This document shows positions 20,544-41,933 of a stretch of 64,000 nucleotides of DNA, in pieces. The notes beneath the pieces are model-generated. The model made no database searches. It was not told the DNA's origin and worked only from the letters and a program-made list of their open reading frames with translations. The DNA comes from Pedococcus aerophilus (GTDB taxonomy: Bacteria > Actinomycetota > Actinomycetes > Actinomycetales > Dermatophilaceae). The DNA lies in NCBI RefSeq assembly GCF_039532215.1, contig NZ_BAAARN010000003.1, positions 124,001 to 188,000 on the forward strand, written 5' to 3'. The position numbers were made by a program, and so were the translations under genes. The stretch's first letter is position 1. The number at the start of each line of letters is the position of its first letter.

Positions 20544-21281
20544 TCAGGAGGTGAGGTGGGCGAACGCGACGATGTTGTCGACGTAGTGCCCGGTGGACTG
20601 GTCGAAGGCACCGCCGCAGGTGATGAGGCGGAGCTCAGCGCGACCCTTGGTGTCGCCGTAGACGATCGAGGTCGGAAAGTCCGCCTTCGAGTAGCGCGCC
20701 ACCCGGTCGACGACGAAGCGCGCGGTCGAGCCGTCCTTGCGGACCACCGACACCTCGGCGCCCTTCTTGAGCGAGCCCAGGCGATAGAAGACGGCCGGGC
20801 CGGACTTGCTGTCGACATGGGCGCCGATGACCGCCGGGCCGAACTCCCCGGGAGTCGGGCCATCAGCCCACCAGCCCGCCTTGGCGAAGTCGGTTGGCGC
20901 CTCGAGCTTTCCGGACTTGTCTATCCCGAGGTCCACGATCCCCTTGGTGCTGACTCCGATCGAGGGGATGACCAAGGACGCCGGAGCGCTGGGACCCATG
21001 ATCGGGCCGAAGTCCGAGGACGTCTGCGGAGCGGCCTTGGTCGTGCTGCCGGCTGATGTCGACGGGGCGCTCGACGGGGCGGTGGCCGCGGAGGTGGTCG
21101 GGGACGGGGCCGGGTCGCCCTGCGTCACCTCGGGTGCCGACTGGGCCGCATCGGGCTGGGGCGGTGCGTCGTTGCCGGTGAAGGACTTCGCGACCAGCAC
21201 TCCCCCGACCAGGAGGAGCACGACGGTGACCGCCGCGGCAATGCTGCCACGGCGGTCACCGAACTTCGAGGAGTCTGACAT
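20544..21281 (-). CDS. class F sortase
   Basis: 245 aa. N-terminal membrane anchor (GSIAAAVTVVLLLVGGVLVA), a ~75-residue Ser/Thr/Pro linker, then a sortase domain with the catalytic His in AVIGAHVDSKSG, Cys in LRLITCGG, and a downstream Asp-rich GHYVDNIV tail. The compact size and the motif fit class F. It cleaves sorting signals and attaches proteins to cell wall or to each other. It overlaps the upstream CHRD gene by one base (TGATG), making that protein the best substrate candidate, although no LPXTG motif is present there. Confidence 0.88.
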   Translation of the reverse strand: MSDSSKFGDRRGSIAAAVTVVLLLVGGVLVAKSFTGNDAPPQPDAAQSAPEVTQGDPAPSPTTSAATAPSSAPSTSAGSTTKAAPQTSSDFGPIMGPSAPASLVIPSIGVSTKGIVDLGIDKSGKLEAPTDFAKAGWWADGPTPGEFGPAVIGAHVDSKSGPAVFYRLGSLKKGAEVSVVRKDGSTARFVVDRVARYSKADFPTSIVYGDTKGRAELRLITCGGAFDQSTGHYVDNIVAFAHLTS

Positions 21282-22045
21282 CAGGCGCGGTTGCGAGCCT
21301 TGCGAGCGGTGAACGCACCCGTACCCGCGGCGGCGACGAGCAGGCCCCCACCGAGGAGGAGCATGCTCTCGTTCGTGCCGGAGCCGGTGCCACCAGCGCC
21401 GGTGTCCATGCCACCGGCGGGAGCGGCGTTCAGGACGCCACAGATGGCCGGGTCGGTGGCCTCGGTGGGCAGGCTCGGGTCGAGGTCACTCTTGGTCTCG
21501 CCGTCGTACTTGCCGTTGTCGTTGTGGTCGACACCGTGGACGACGACGACAGCCTTGCCCTCGGTGATGGCCTGGGCCACGTCGGAGGAGACGTTGATGC
21601 TGCCGCGCTCGTAGTTGATCTTGCCGCCGGGGGCGGTGTCGAAACGGTCGACGGCCAGGCCACTCTTGGGCGAGGTGTCACCGGTCTTGGTCAGCGACAC
21701 CACGATGGGGCCGTACGCGGGACCACCGTCGGTGGTGTTGATGGTGCCGTCGTTCTTCGCGTCGTCAGCTGCGACCGGGCACTCGTGGCGCGCGTCGGCA
21801 CCGAAGTGGATGTGCGCCGCGTGCGGGTTGTCGGGAAGCAGGCCGTTGGCCGCCATGGTCACGTCGATGCGGGTGCCGCTGACGGTCACCATCGCCGTGC
21901 CGCTGCCCTTCACGCCGTTGAGCGCGACCGGGCGGAGTGTCGCCATGGTGTTGCCGTCAGCAGCCTGGGCCACGCCGGCGCCGAGGAACGGCAGGAGCAC
22001 GGCAGACCCGAGGGCCACGGAAGCAATCTTGGAGGTAGTACGCAT
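21281..22045 (-). CDS. secreted CHRD-domain protein with C-terminal membrane anchor
   Basis: 254 aa from the ATG at 22045, with AAGGAGA 7 bases upstream. Sec signal peptide ending VAQAA (residue ~29), then a CHRD domain with ANGLLPDNPHAAHIHFGADA and VVVVHGVDHNDNGKYDGETK (His and acidic residues). C-terminal Gly/Thr/Ser linker, hydrophobic stretch (LLLGGGLLVAAAGTGAF) and basic tail ARKARNRA, the geometry of a sorting signal, but the motif before the helix reads GTGSGTNES rather than LPXTG. It is transcribed with the class F sortase. Role at the cell surface unknown. Confidence 0.85.
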   Translation of the reverse strand: MRTTSKIASVALGSAVLLPFLGAGVAQAADGNTMATLRPVALNGVKGSGTAMVTVSGTRIDVTMAANGLLPDNPHAAHIHFGADARHECPVAADDAKNDGTINTTDGGPAYGPIVVSLTKTGDTSPKSGLAVDRFDTAPGGKINYERGSINVSSDVAQAITEGKAVVVVHGVDHNDNGKYDGETKSDLDPSLPTEATDPAICGVLNAAPAGGMDTGAGGTGSGTNESMLLLGGGLLVAAAGTGAFTARKARNRA

Positions 22046-37859: not shown

Positions 37860-37895
37860 GCCGACGAGGGGACTTGAACCCCTAACGCCCTGTTT
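37860..37895 (-). repeat. left attachment-site relic: duplicated 3' half of tRNA-Thr
   Basis: 36 bases identical to 41862-41897 except at 37887 (g for c), beginning gccgacgaggggacttgaac, in the same orientation. It covers the T arm, variable region and part of the anticodon arm of the tRNA, then diverges completely. A duplicated tRNA 3' half is the classic footprint of tyrosine-integrase insertion. Confidence 0.85.
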
Positions 37896-38357
37896 CTGTG
37901 CGCAAATCTTCCGCTTGTCTTGGCTGTTGCCGAGCGTCGCTGTGCTGCAACCGATTTGGGTCGGATCGACCACTGGACGTCTCGCGTCATTTCCGGCTGT
38001 CTCGGACCCAAAGAGATGGCCAGATAGATGGCAGCCGGGCCCTCGGCGGGCGACCCCGCGGGTCTGCGCACCGACCTCGACTCAGCACCACCACCCGGTG
38101 ACCCGCTGCGATGCGGGTACGAGGCGGAACGCAAGGGGTGCTGTGGCCCAGCCCGGCTGGGAGGTCGGGCGCGGCTCGCGACGAGGCAGCGTTCAAGCCA
38201 GCAAGAGACCTCTCACCAAGCCCTCGAGCCTGGCGTGAACTCGGTCGGCAAGAAGTGCGGGGGTCGACCGGGACGAGCCCACGGACAGCCATCGCCCACC
38301 CCTTTGACCTGCGCCGATGCCCTCATCGTGGAACTCCGCAGTGGCTGAAGTCGCCCT
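37896..38357. other. gene-free left end of island
   Basis: No supported gene in ~460 bases; base composition is more AT-rich than the surroundings near 37890-38020. An integrase would normally lie at this position next to the att site, but I see no conserved R-H-R-Y remnants. Confidence 0.5.
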
Positions 38358-38768
38358 GTGCGCCCCATCCGCAGGCTCTCCTCAGCCGCTGGCCGCTGCA
38401 CAGCTGGGTTCGTCCTTAACGGGTGCGCCGGTCAAGGCAGCGCGGAGGACCACAACGCCGAAGCAGTCGTCACACAGTTCGTCGGCTCCATCCGCACCGA
38501 CCCGGCAGCCGCGTGCGCACTGCTGGCACCCGCCACGCTCACAGCCCTCCAGGACCACGATGGAGACTGCCCCACCGGTCTGCCCAAACAGATCCAGCCC
38601 TCCAGCGGCCTGGCGACATCCACTGCGGTGTACGGCAAGTACGCCATCGTCCACGTAGGCGCCGACACCATCTTCGCCGCCCGGTTCGAGGACGGATGGC
38701 GTGTCACCGCCGCCGGGTGCACCCCCCAGGCGGATCGCCCCTACAACTGCAAGATCAAGGGGAACTGA
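38358..38768 (+). CDS. putative small lipoprotein, unknown function
   Basis: 136 aa from the GTG at 38358. Basic N-terminus (RPIRRLSSAAGR), a weakly hydrophobic stretch and a lipobox-like VLNGC near residue 23. The mature part has VVTQFVGSIRTDPAAACALL, ALQDHDGDCPTGL, VYGKYAIVHVGADTIFAARF and a closing CTPQADRPYNCKIKGN, with four to five Cys that could pair. The pattern (an NTF2-like fold with FEDGWRV.AAGC) is common in actinobacterial secreted proteins. It is followed after 1 base by a 27-aa membrane peptide and then by DUF6766. Island cargo. Confidence 0.65.
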   Translation: MRPIRRLSSAAGRCTAGFVLNGCAGQGSAEDHNAEAVVTQFVGSIRTDPAAACALLAPATLTALQDHDGDCPTGLPKQIQPSSGLATSTAVYGKYAIVHVGADTIFAARFEDGWRVTAAGCTPQADRPYNCKIKGN

Positions 38769-38769
38769 C

Positions 38770-38853
38770 ATGCGCGCCCTGTTCACCGGCTACGTCGTGT
38801 TCATCGTGCTCGGGATCGCCTATTGCCTCGCCATCGGGTTGGCGCACCGATGA
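38770..38853 (+). CDS. 27-residue single-helix membrane peptide
   Basis: ATG at 38770, one base after the lipoprotein stop: RALFTGYVVFIVLGIAYCLA then IGLAHR. It is a single hydrophobic helix with basic ends. Its stop overlaps the DUF6766 ATG (ATGA), so expression is coupled to both neighbours. Short peptides of this type occur upstream of DUF6766 genes; the role is unknown. Confidence 0.6.
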   Translation: MRALFTGYVVFIVLGIAYCLAIGLAHR

Positions 38854-39524
38854 AGAAGACTCTGCGCAACAACAGCCTCACCCTGGCCTTCACGGCCCTG
38901 CTCTTGGTCGCGCTGGTCGGCCAAGCGCTCACCGGGCGAGCCGGGTACAACGAGTCCGCGCTCGACCTTGGCCTCCCCACCGCAAGCATGCTCGAGTACC
39001 TGACGTCATCACAGTTCACCGTCGACGTCGCCGAGAACTGGCAGTCCGAGTACCTGCAGTTCCTCCTCTACATCCTGCTCACTGTCTGGCTGCTTCAGAG
39101 AGGGTCCCCGGAGTCCAAACCTCTGGGCTCCCCTGGCCGCGAAACTGACGAGGACCACAAAGCCGGCCGGTACGCGGACGACCACTCACCACGTTGGGCC
39201 GCCGTCGGCGGGTGGCGCACCGCCCTGTTTTCCAGGTCATTGGGGCCGACGATGGGCGCGGTCTTCATCGGGTCGTGGAGCGCGCAGTTCATCGCCGGCC
39301 GCTCCGCATACAACGCCGAACAGCTCCAAGACCTCCAAGTCCCCTTCAGCTGGTCCCAGTATCTCGTCGCACCCGACTTCTGGAACCGCTCGTTCCAGAG
39401 CTGGCAGTCCGAGTTCCTCGCCGTTGCCAGCATGGTCATCTTCAGCGTCTACCTGCGTGAACGTGGCTCACCCGAATCGAAACCCGTCGGCACCTCCAAC
39501 ACGGCCACAGGAGTCGAGGGCTGA
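38850..39524 (+). CDS. DUF6766 family membrane protein
   Basis: 224 aa from the ATG at 38850. The chain is an internal duplication: each half has a membrane helix, a GRxxYN loop, a WQSE(F/Y)L helix and the cap RGSPESKP (residues ~87-95 and ~207-214). About four helices with extracytoplasmic loops. I recognise the family only as DUF6766. As the main gene of the island mini-operon (lipoprotein, 27-aa peptide, DUF6766) it probably forms an envelope complex with those two products; substrate unknown. Confidence 0.82.
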   Translation: MKKTLRNNSLTLAFTALLLVALVGQALTGRAGYNESALDLGLPTASMLEYLTSSQFTVDVAENWQSEYLQFLLYILLTVWLLQRGSPESKPLGSPGRETDEDHKAGRYADDHSPRWAAVGGWRTALFSRSLGPTMGAVFIGSWSAQFIAGRSAYNAEQLQDLQVPFSWSQYLVAPDFWNRSFQSWQSEFLAVASMVIFSVYLRERGSPESKPVGTSNTATGVEG

Positions 39525-39597
39525 CCCGACAAGAATCCCTTTGCCTCGGTCACAGAGCGGCCACACCTTCACCTCGACCAGTCAGCGGGAGTCCCTC

Positions 39598-39906
39598 GTG
39601 TCGTCTGCCGACACCACCATCACCGACTCCGCTCTCACGTTTGAGCTCGATGCCCCCAGGGGCCGGTGGGGCCGCTCACCACCCCGCAACCCCGGCCCGT
39701 TCCAGTACGGGTACCGCATCCACGACCACTCCGGCCGCATCCGACAGCTCGTCCTGGTCGGCAACAGCGAAGACTCTGGCGGACAAGTCAAACGCCTCAG
39801 CGATGTTGCCGGGCGCATCGTCGACTCGTTCGGCAGCCCTAGCTTCAACGCCGACGGCACATCGCCAGCAGCGACGTCGTCTCTGCCAGCAGCGCAGCGC
39901 CGGCGC
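39598..39906 (+). pseudogene. truncated PAS-domain gene, relative of the PAS-ANTAR proteins
   Basis: Reading from a GTG at 39598 gives ALTFELDAPRGRWG, like the start of PAS-ANTAR proteins, then jumps to NPGPFQYGYRIHDHSGRIRQ and LVLVGNSEDSGGQVKRLSD, which normally lies ~45 residues further on. The segment is nearly the same as in the decayed copy at 12.05-12.18 kb. After GRIVDSFG similarity ends, and no ANTAR domain follows. Internal deletion plus C-terminal loss is the simplest reading. Confidence 0.7.
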
Positions 39907-40071
39907 CTAGTCGTCATCAGAGGGTGTCGCGGGGGACTCCTCTGCTTCCAACGGGACCGCCCCGCACTCCATCACGACTGGCTCGACATAGCCTGGCGGG
40001 GCCGGCGGGTCTGGCGTCACAGGGGGAAACGTCGTTCCATCCGGGAGCAGATGGCTTGAACCATTGGTCAT
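39907..40071 (-). CDS. possible 54-residue proline-rich small protein
   Basis: ATG at 40071 has a strong GGAGGTGG about 9 bases upstream. The product opens TNGSSHLLPDGTTFPPVTPD, continues with PAPPGYVEPVVM and ends acidic (EAEESPATPSDDD). No homology that I recognise and no membrane segment. It lies inside the island, antisense to the tail of the broken PAS gene. The good ribosome site is the main support; it could be chance. Confidence 0.4.
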   Translation of the reverse strand: MTNGSSHLLPDGTTFPPVTPDPPAPPGYVEPVVMECGAVPLEAEESPATPSDDD

Positions 40072-40801
40072 CGTTGACCACCTCCACCACGTCACTTGCC
40101 CCGCCACGGTCCCTGCAAACGTTCGCTCGGGGCGTGGGCAGAACATGCCTGCTGACGAGCCCTGGACCCAGGTCGTCGGCAACGCCTGCGAGCGTCCCGT
40201 TGTCCAAGTCACCAGCGGCACGGCTTCACCTTCTCCGGCAGAGAAGCCAACGCTGGGTTGCGGCCACGCACACCTCAGAGTTGGCGCACACGTGGGCCAG
40301 GCGCCGGGTCCCGCTGGAGGTTGCCCCGTCTCTGATCGCTGCGCTGCCCGATCCTGCTCGCAGAGGACTAGTTCCAGAATGGTCCGGATGGGCCATGGCC
40401 GGATCCGTTCACCGATGACAACGTTGTCTCAGGAGACAGTCGGGGTTGTGAAGTGCCCTGCGTCCTCATCCAACAGCGTGGTGAGAGTCTCCATGCACGT
40501 TCACGACCACCGAGAACACCGACGTTGGCGCGTAGTGGCTGTTTTGGTGGCCGTCGAGCGACGTGCGGCGACGCCTCGTCCTTCCCCCCCAGGACGAGGC
40601 GTCGCTGCATCTGCAGGCAGGAGCTGGGTGTGATCTGCGAGCGGCGACCGCGCCACCGCTCTCGCGCGCGTCTGTGGTCTTCCGTTTGTGACCCGATGGC
40701 CGGGGTATGTACCTCGCACCCGTGGCTCGGCAGCACGCGTGGGGACGCGGTACCGAGAGCGCCGAGTCACGGGTCGCCCATCGTGTGCTGAGCGCGTGGA
40801 C
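40072..40801. other. gene-poor island segment
   Basis: About 730 bases without a supported gene. Contains a strong hairpin at 40568-40605 and a small palindrome TGTCTCAGGAGACA at 40425-40438. Frames open across parts of it lack ribosome sites and family motifs; probably decayed coding DNA. Confidence 0.5.
40568..40605. terminator. 15-bp hairpin in the island
   Basis: Perfect arms 40568-40582 (gcgacgcctcgtcct) and 40591-40605, with an 8-base C-rich loop. It is 197 bases downstream of the PAS-ANTAR stop on the minus strand and could end that transcript. No T-run. Confidence 0.6.
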
Positions 40802-41431
40802 TCACGCGGGTGTGCCACTGAACATCTGCCGGATCCGCGTGACGTCGTCCTCGGACCCGCAGACCCCGTCAGAAACAACTCGAGCAGCCAGATCTCGAAG
40901 CTTGATGTTGTGGTTCTGCGAAAAGCGCTGGAGCACAGCGAAAGCGGCGGCCTCGTTCATGCCGAAGGTGGCCATGATCGCTCCTTTCGCCTGCTCGATC
41001 ACGGCTCGGTGCTCGGCTGAGGCTTCCACAGCCTCGGCCGCACCCTGCCGGACGGAGTTGGTGATGTCCACCATGAACCCCTGCACCCGCTCCACCTGCC
41101 CAGGGGCGGCTCGACTCTCACCGGCAAGGACCACGTGATGAATCGTCCCTCGGGGGTCGCAGATTCGGAACTCACACGAGAAGGGGCCCGGGGTCTGGAG
41201 GGTGCGCTGGAACATTCCGAAGATCGTGTCTCGGTCCTCGGCGACGATGCGCGCCAGCATGTGCGCCGTCTTCACAGGCTGCCCCTCGGCCACACCGTAC
41301 AGAGCCCTGATGCCTTCGGAGCAGGTCCAAGTGTCCGTGTTCACGAGGTAGTCGAACATCAACGACGGGCCGAGGTTGTCAACGGCTTCGAACGGCACTT
41401 CATCCTCCAGCAATGCGTCTGGTCGCGTCAC
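40802..41431 (-). CDS. PAS-ANTAR regulatory RNA-binding protein
   Basis: 209 aa, GTG start at 41431 with a weak ribosome site. PAS_3 domain, residues ~20-125: FDYLVNTDTWTCSEGIRALY, LARIVAEDRDTIFGMF, PGPFSCEFRICDPRGTIHHV. ANTAR domain, residues ~140-200: SAEHRAVIEQAKGAIMATFG, MNEAAAFAVLQRFSQNHNIK, LRDLAARVV, with the conserved Ala and Gly of the RNA-contacting helix. It should bind paired hexaloop hairpins in mRNA leaders and antiterminate in response to a PAS ligand. It is the only intact regulator in the island. Confidence 0.88.
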   Translation of the reverse strand: MTRPDALLEDEVPFEAVDNLGPSLMFDYLVNTDTWTCSEGIRALYGVAEGQPVKTAHMLARIVAEDRDTIFGMFQRTLQTPGPFSCEFRICDPRGTIHHVVLAGESRAAPGQVERVQGFMVDITNSVRQGAAEAVEASAEHRAVIEQAKGAIMATFGMNEAAAFAVLQRFSQNHNIKLRDLAARVVSDGVCGSEDDVTRIRQMFSGTPA

Positions 41432-41860
41432 TGGCCGGCTTTCTGACCTGCGCCGATGCTAATACAGGGAGAGGCGTCAAAGCCAAGCCTTCACACGGGA
41501 CTGCGGCAGCACCTTCGGCCCGCGGCCTTGACGTTCAACTGCACGACGTAGCCGCCGCGTCCACATGACGGGAACGACGCGGCCACGTAGGTCGCGGTCC
41601 GGATCAGGCGTCGCAGTCGCCACGCGAGCCCGACTTCGCCAGTCACGAGCGATGAGGTGGGCGATGGTCAGGAACGTGATGTGGCGCAGGGACTGCTCGA
41701 CGCTGAACGGGTCGGCACCGCCGTCGCCACCGTCACCGACCCCACGTCTTCCAGCCGCCCTCGAAGGAGCAGATCCGCGGCGGTTCGTGGGCGAAGAGGA
41801 TGGCCAAAACGATGGGGTGGGGTGGTTACCGGACCGAGGAGGTGTTTCCGCTGGGCCAAG
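41432..41860. other. island right end, no assigned gene
   Basis: A minus-strand frame ending at 41477 reads DPFSVEQSLRHITFLTIAHL and RDWRSRARVATATPDP, which has a protein-like composition, but no start with a ribosome site lies between it and the tRNA, and I recognise no family. Possibly a remnant of island cargo or of the lost integration module. Confidence 0.35.
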
Positions 41861-41933
41861 GGCCGACGAGGGGACTTGAACCCCTAACCCCCTGTTTACA
41901 AGACAGGTGCGCTGCCAATTGCGCCACGCCGGC
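41861..41933 (-). tRNA. tRNA-Thr (anticodon TGT)
   Basis: Minus-strand cloverleaf: acceptor GCCGGCG pairs with CGTCGGC (one G-T), D arm GCGC/GCGC, anticodon stem CCTGT/ACAGG with loop CTTGTAA so anticodon TGT, T arm AGGGG/CCCCT with loop TTCAAGT. 72 bases plus discriminator. CCA is not encoded. Its 3' half is duplicated at 37860-37895, marking it as an integration target. It decodes ACA and, by wobble, ACG. Confidence 0.93.

Follow-up and report, generated by a model that had tools for sequence, protein, structure and literature searches.

What occupies the DNA between a tRNA-Thr gene and a second copy of that gene's 3′ half in Pedococcus aerophilus? We analysed a window of 64,000 nucleotides from this genome (G000; the window is G000:C3:124001-188000), using ten genus mates (G001-G010), a family set of 186 genomes and a series of fetched loci (L numbers). 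The boundaries of the segment, in window coordinates, are:

41860-41933, minus strand: tRNA-Thr(UGU), the attachment gene (ARAGORN tRNA-Thr(tgt), Rfam, repeat)
41862-41897: tRNA-side att core, the tRNA 3′ half (repeat comparison)
37860-37895, minus strand: distal att core, a displaced duplicate of the 3′ half of the tRNA, matching at 35 of 36 positions (repeat; same layout in other genomes)

A first-pass annotation had read 37860-37895 as a copy of 41862-41897 with one mismatch and in the same orientation, and both this repeat (35/36) and the pairing of an intact tRNA at one end with a duplicated half at the other were borne out by ARAGORN, Rfam (66.8 bits at 41861-41933) and repeat comparison. 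The half copy lies 4,002 bases, core to core, from the intact tRNA-Thr(UGU), and the common 36 bases are the tRNA 3′ half, ending at the anticodon loop. The next best ungapped match to the 36-mer within the 64-kb window reaches 23/36, so the repeat is not due to chance. One hallmark of AICEs is present, namely att repeats placed site-specifically at the 3′ end of a tRNA gene. The discriminator (base 73, window position 41861) of this tRNA-Thr is C, whereas all 38 other distinct anchor-pattern matches in the fetched loci, one or more of them just a half copy, have U; the C is possibly a scar of a decayed element end.

Searching the 186 family genomes with the G010 integrase that lies beside the tRNA, we found a relative at E 1e-20 or better in 49 of them. 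Among the 20 listed integrase loci, 15 of the best 16 contain tRNA-Thr(tgt), with G194 holding only a half copy, and the loci of the four more distant integrases (42-45%) hold tRNA-Lys. Pfam detected Phage_integrase in G006, G008 and G010, as well as in G035, where the integrase is of another type; RepSA in G006 and G010, in the latter with HTH_17 in the same open frame; and FtsK_SpoIIIE together with DUF5753/HTH_31 in G006. The RepSA gene of G006 has a homologue in G008 (96%). NCBIfam matches were below cut-off for RepSA (G006, G010) and TraB (G006, G008) and above it for an excisionase domain in G010. On the basis of these RepSA and FtsK/TraB-like genes, we take the G006-, G008- and G010-type elements to be AICEs.

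As the first-pass annotation had anticipated, relatives carry longer elements at the same tRNA-Thr, each with a half duplicate at the far end. With a near-full-length integrase, the distance from tRNA to distal copy is 7.7 kb in G155, 9.3 in G130, 10.0 in G139, 11.8 in G210, 11.9 in G125, 13.6 in G128, 15.6 in G100, 16.2 in G129, 30.7 in G006 and 39.5 kb in G008. With a truncated integrase it is 3.4 kb in G131, 5.3 in G135 and 8.4 kb in G012, and it is to this set that the 4.0-kb segment of the window belongs. The distal copy lies on a different contig in G127 and G132, the half copy has merely a 22-base match in G044, and no distal half copy was seen in G138. The other integrase type of G035 (29% to the G006 integrase) sits at the same tRNA in an interval of 23.8 kb; in G025 the interval spans 4.2 kb and no integrase was called in it. 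Array-like structures, with extra half copies and integrase pieces at tRNA-Thr, occur in G012 (L129) and G194 (L095, L137).

An integrase remains recognizable in the window as well, abutting a second truncated gene near 41740:

41733-41816, plus strand: C-terminal stub of a tyrosine integrase, 28 aligned residues (local alignment)
41616-41740, minus strand: C-terminal fragment of a small membrane-protein gene (alignment with five matching loci)

The stub aligns with the integrases of G008 (score 74) and G006 (69), compared with a maximum of 55 among 298 control pieces; these two integrases are 99% alike and therefore count as one witness. Against the G010 integrase the score is 54, which 10 of the 298 control pieces reach. 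The stub is oriented as in G006, and its distance to the tRNA is nearly equal too. The earlier claim that the element "has lost its integrase" thus needs qualification: the complete gene is gone, but a C-terminal tail of 28 residues stays. The small membrane-protein gene is called as an open reading frame of 93-101 amino acids in four of the five matching loci, and there is probably a deletion joint near 41740, where a single deletion between divergent genes would explain the loss of the 5′ parts of both the integrase and the membrane-protein gene.

Of the genes by which an AICE is otherwise known, only the stub was detected in the segment. None of the 15 segment ORFs scanned, a subset of those listed, gave a Rep or FtsK/TraB-type Pfam match, and ten of them had no Pfam match of any kind. 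The best match of a relative's RepSA to the segment (28% over 57 residues, E 0.009) is at noise level, as an unrelated gene reached E 0.008. The 4-kb segment yielded neither a complete integrase gene nor one for replication or transfer. At E 1e-20, G000 itself holds no relative of the G010-type integrase; elsewhere in this genome there are five Pfam Phage_integrase matches, one of them partial.

The opposite end also resembles that of the related elements:

37896-38225, strand not assigned: left end, which aligns with the distal element ends of G006, G008 and G010 (alignment and controls)

Positions 37896-38245 scored 61, 59 and 56 against the distal ends of G006, G008 and G010 (contig C10), respectively. 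The maxima of 500 shuffles each were 38, 36 and 32, and those over 167 window pieces were 35, 35 and 31. In G010, the first 72 bp next to the distal core are unlike the window, and the 72 bases at the end of contig C1 gave no signal, with 379 of 500 shuffles reaching their score.

Between these ends lies a mixture of intact and broken genes:

38358-38768, plus strand: 136-aa lipoprotein-like gene before DUF6766, cargo (homologue in L099; no Pfam or NCBIfam hit)
38823-39524, plus strand: DUF6766 membrane protein gene, intact, cargo (Pfam)
39688-39825, plus strand: PAS-domain gene fragment (tblastn, 50% over 46 residues to a G007 gene)
40802-41431, minus strand: PAS-ANTAR regulator, intact, 209 aa, cargo (Pfam)

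The 136-aa gene and DUF6766 (38421-39525) share 76% DNA identity with a module located elsewhere in G007, and 39977-40095 matches the downstream flank of that G007 module; the PAS fragment is located between these two matches. The interior is thus a patchwork of the DUF6766 module, the PAS-ANTAR regulator and gene fragments. NCBIfam gave no match for the DUF6766 and lipoprotein-like genes, nor for the DUF2254 gene that lies beyond the distal copy. The "broken genes" of the first-pass annotation hold for the integrase, the small membrane-protein gene and the PAS gene, but DUF6766 and PAS-ANTAR are intact open reading frames. Its description of the segment as less GC-rich stands (0.658 versus 0.701 for the whole window, with 2 of 240 overlapping 4-kb pieces equally low or lower), but the dip already starts outside the segment, at 33.9-37.86 kb (0.672). 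At 40552-40607, a hairpin with a C-rich loop gives a weak match to 6C RNA (32.4 bits; gathering score 47).

Both ends also carry a tandem repeat at a characteristic distance from the core:

41794-41817, plus strand: tandem 12-bp repeat, probable integrase arm site on the tRNA side (best matrix match in the window)
38010-38033, plus strand: tandem 12-bp repeat, probable integrase arm site on the distal side (second-best matrix match in the window)

The tRNA-side repeat is 44 bp from the core in the window and 47-48 bp in the other elements, the G194 right arm excepted, and the distal repeat is 115 bp inside the core, compared with 111-115 bp elsewhere. The general anatomy of tyrosine-integrase att sites is the basis for calling these repeats arm sites and, together with their position, suggests that they bind integrase.

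The motif was first spotted by eye in listings that included the window ends, and the 24-base matrix was then trained with the window left out, on 31 arms of 17 other genomes. G138, G135 and the G127 right arm were omitted from training although they carry integrase sequences, and the G194 right arm, with its odd spacing, was used for training at first but excluded from the second set. Over all window positions on both strands, the matrix ranked 41794 first (16.7) and 38010 second (11.3), followed by a third match at 8.2. Arms outside the training set scored 36.2 and 35.6 (the two arms of G135) and 28.2 (G010 left arm); no repeat was seen in the G138 flank. Among intact tRNA-Thr 3′ flanks, all 24 scored that lack an adjoining clade integrase had values of -8.2 or less (slightly smaller training set; 2 of 26 such loci went unscored because they misfit the anchor pattern), compared with 24.8-35.3 for all three with a clade integrase and 14.7 for the window. 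The left site kept a score of 11.3-11.5 across matrix versions. Two of 299,554 control positions reached 11.2 or more, one being the genuine right arm of G010 and the other a match of 14.5 in G008 (L094) that is unexplained, and further loci contained unexplained matches of 11.4 (L040) and 11.2 (L136). The left site is therefore identified by its position and not by score alone.

The stub, the likeness of the left end and the predicted arm sites support the earlier view of an inserted element at tRNA-Thr. Taken together, they make it likely that the segment is the deletion-reduced remnant of a tRNA-Thr(UGU)-specific AICE that has kept both ends, each with core and arm site. By sequence it would be classed as an AICE remnant of the CIME type, the AICE label being drawn from the ends only. 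An AICE with a tRNA-Thr(UGU)-specific tyrosine integrase would have recombined the tRNA 3′ half on its circle with the chromosomal one, and integration would have completed the tRNA gene with the 3′ half brought in by the element while displacing the original half to the far end, as the layout suggests. Later deletions would have stripped away almost all of the element, its replication and transfer genes included, and of the integrase gene spared only the final portion, leaving a 4.0-kb remnant of both ends and a cargo patchwork within a larger integration hot spot; autonomous movement would have been lost. An "element of ~4.0 kb", as first described, is accordingly what remains now, and the original insert was probably larger. 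In G008, the displaced half (L093 ~9000, G008:C3:340997-341038) differs from the present tRNA half by a paired T-stem change, A-U versus G-C, the pattern that an exchange of 3′ halves during integration would leave.

Several other histories could produce a similar arrangement. In the one that fares best, a tandem array was fused by deletion, such that the stub stems from one element and the distal half and left arm from another. The patchwork interior is in line with such a fusion, as are the additional half copies followed by integrase pieces that G012 and G194 carry at this tRNA. Comparison of the arms bears on it from the other side, as left and right repeats are more alike within one element than between elements (mean 20.6 versus 15.6 of 24; G194 omitted), a likeness that none of 10,000 permutations reached, although the 14 elements compared include several close relatives, the window among them. 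The window pair matches at 16/24, the right arm being the best partner for the left arm and the left arm tying with those of G006 and G008 for the right, a value that does not settle the origin; overall, we regard fusion of an array as improbable. Decidedly improbable is a remnant of a phage or other integrative island, not an AICE, whose related integrase used the same tRNA: the segment yielded no rep or tra gene and the second integrase type, in G035, shows that the tRNA also serves other integrases, but the ends match the G006, G008 and G010 elements, which carry AICE genes. It is scarcely credible that the half copy arose by partial duplication of the tRNA gene, with ordinary chromosome in between. 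Although tRNA fragments do occur and DUF6766 module homologues lie at other chromosomal places in the family, each end has an arm site near its canonical spacing, a stub of the integrase persists and the left end is homologous to that of elements bearing an integrase, all of which speaks against this reading; we reject simple duplication on the arm sites and stub. Vertically inherited gene order, named at the outset as what would refute an insertion, was likewise rejected, since among the matches listed for the 186 family genomes, with two candidates scored per genome, the longest stretch otherwise matching the 4.0-kb segment measured 1.1 kb in one piece.

AICE remnants are already known, and such remnants are ordinary in these bacteria. 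PMC3218068 reports that integrases of the pSE211 type use a tRNA-Thr gene, and that AICEs occur in tandem and possibly as remnants. The pSAM2-type AICEs covered there resemble the present case in the tRNA target, the integrase beside the tRNA and, in the elements of the relatives, RepSA and FtsK/TraB; by contrast, rep, tra and a complete int were not detected in the window copy. A CIME, as defined in an excerpt of PMC5704250, is a cis-mobilizable element whose integration and transfer genes are lost and whose two att sites are retained. The AICE remnant in the window matches this description: attL and attR are kept, with cores identical at 35 of 36 positions and both predicted arm sites, and the integration and transfer genes are gone according to Pfam, the RepSA comparison and the presence of a stub only. 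However, one base of its core is mismatched, the trailer of the tRNA shows drift, and the likeness concerns sequence, not cis mobilization. Decayed AICEs in a Streptomyces population are the subject of parts of PMC9513070, which report accretion at one tRNA and suggest later cis mobilization; accretion at one tRNA and a traB-less remnant between direct repeats are shared features, whereas the bacteria differ and an empty site, reported there for one decayed element, was not found here. A search for literature on this element among open-licence papers returned no title, and the arm repeats may be published elsewhere.

The AICE remnant suggests that predicted arm sites at fixed spacing make a small remnant recognizable by its ends even when a complete integrase is missing. 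This approach would reveal decayed AICEs missed by gene-based tools, and the co-varying arm sequences could be used for tests of integrase specificity. A bolder and rather unlikely proposal is that the remnant is a working CIME, excisable with its cargo by an incoming AICE, and that the clade has an arm-site recognition code. If so, a tRNA-Thr-specific AICE arriving in the strain could carry off the DUF6766/PAS-ANTAR cargo, and the co-varying left and right arm repeats would reflect a recognition code between integrases and their repeats.

The surroundings show that tRNA-Thr(UGU) is a much-used hot spot for insertion in the genus (Pedococcus/Phycicoccus). Transglycosylase-like, exporter-like and kinase genes (named by eye) recur 5′ of the tRNA, the first adjoining it in nine of the ten genus mates (G009 excepted) and also in G025, G035 and G051. 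In 10 of 11 genus genomes, a primase-polymerase gene of the LigD type (Pfam) shares the contig with the tRNA, on its 3′ side; in G010 the contig is broken. The tRNA-to-LigD distance is 4.9 kb in G004, 6.5 in G002, 12.2 in G007, 12.6 in G009 (tRNA match 82%), 16.6 in G001, 17.9 in G003, 19.7 in G005, 47.1 in G000, 47.8 in G006 and 71.7 kb in G008; the interval is thus a variable hot spot of 4.9 to 72 kb. The clean empty site sought in strains lacking the element was not found in the 10 other genus genomes, in which the left flank has no match. Within the genus, the DUF2254 gene of this flank is matched solely in its own genome (1 of 11); in the family, 68 of the 186 genomes have a match, the best among the 67 others being 56% identical.

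From the tRNA to a DUF4331-like gene (named by eye), the distance is 4.0 kb in G007 and 40.1 kb here, so strain-specific DNA extends beyond the remnant. The roughly 35 kb from the DUF4331-like genes to the distal half (window 2276-37859) have no equally long counterpart at the site in G007. Within this stretch, an ARAGORN tRNA-Met at 21369-21449 overlaps a predicted ORF (21281-22018) and may be a false call. Matches on G000 contig C1 and in G004 were considered as further tRNA-Thr islands and rejected, ARAGORN identifying the tRNA as tRNA-Ala(tgc). The one in G000 (G000:C1:2274410-2287255; L003, L004, L150) is a second island of this genome, with a tRNA-Ala(tgc) 3′-half copy about 12.8 kb from the gene and a partial integrase, a 200-aa open frame, at 2284069.
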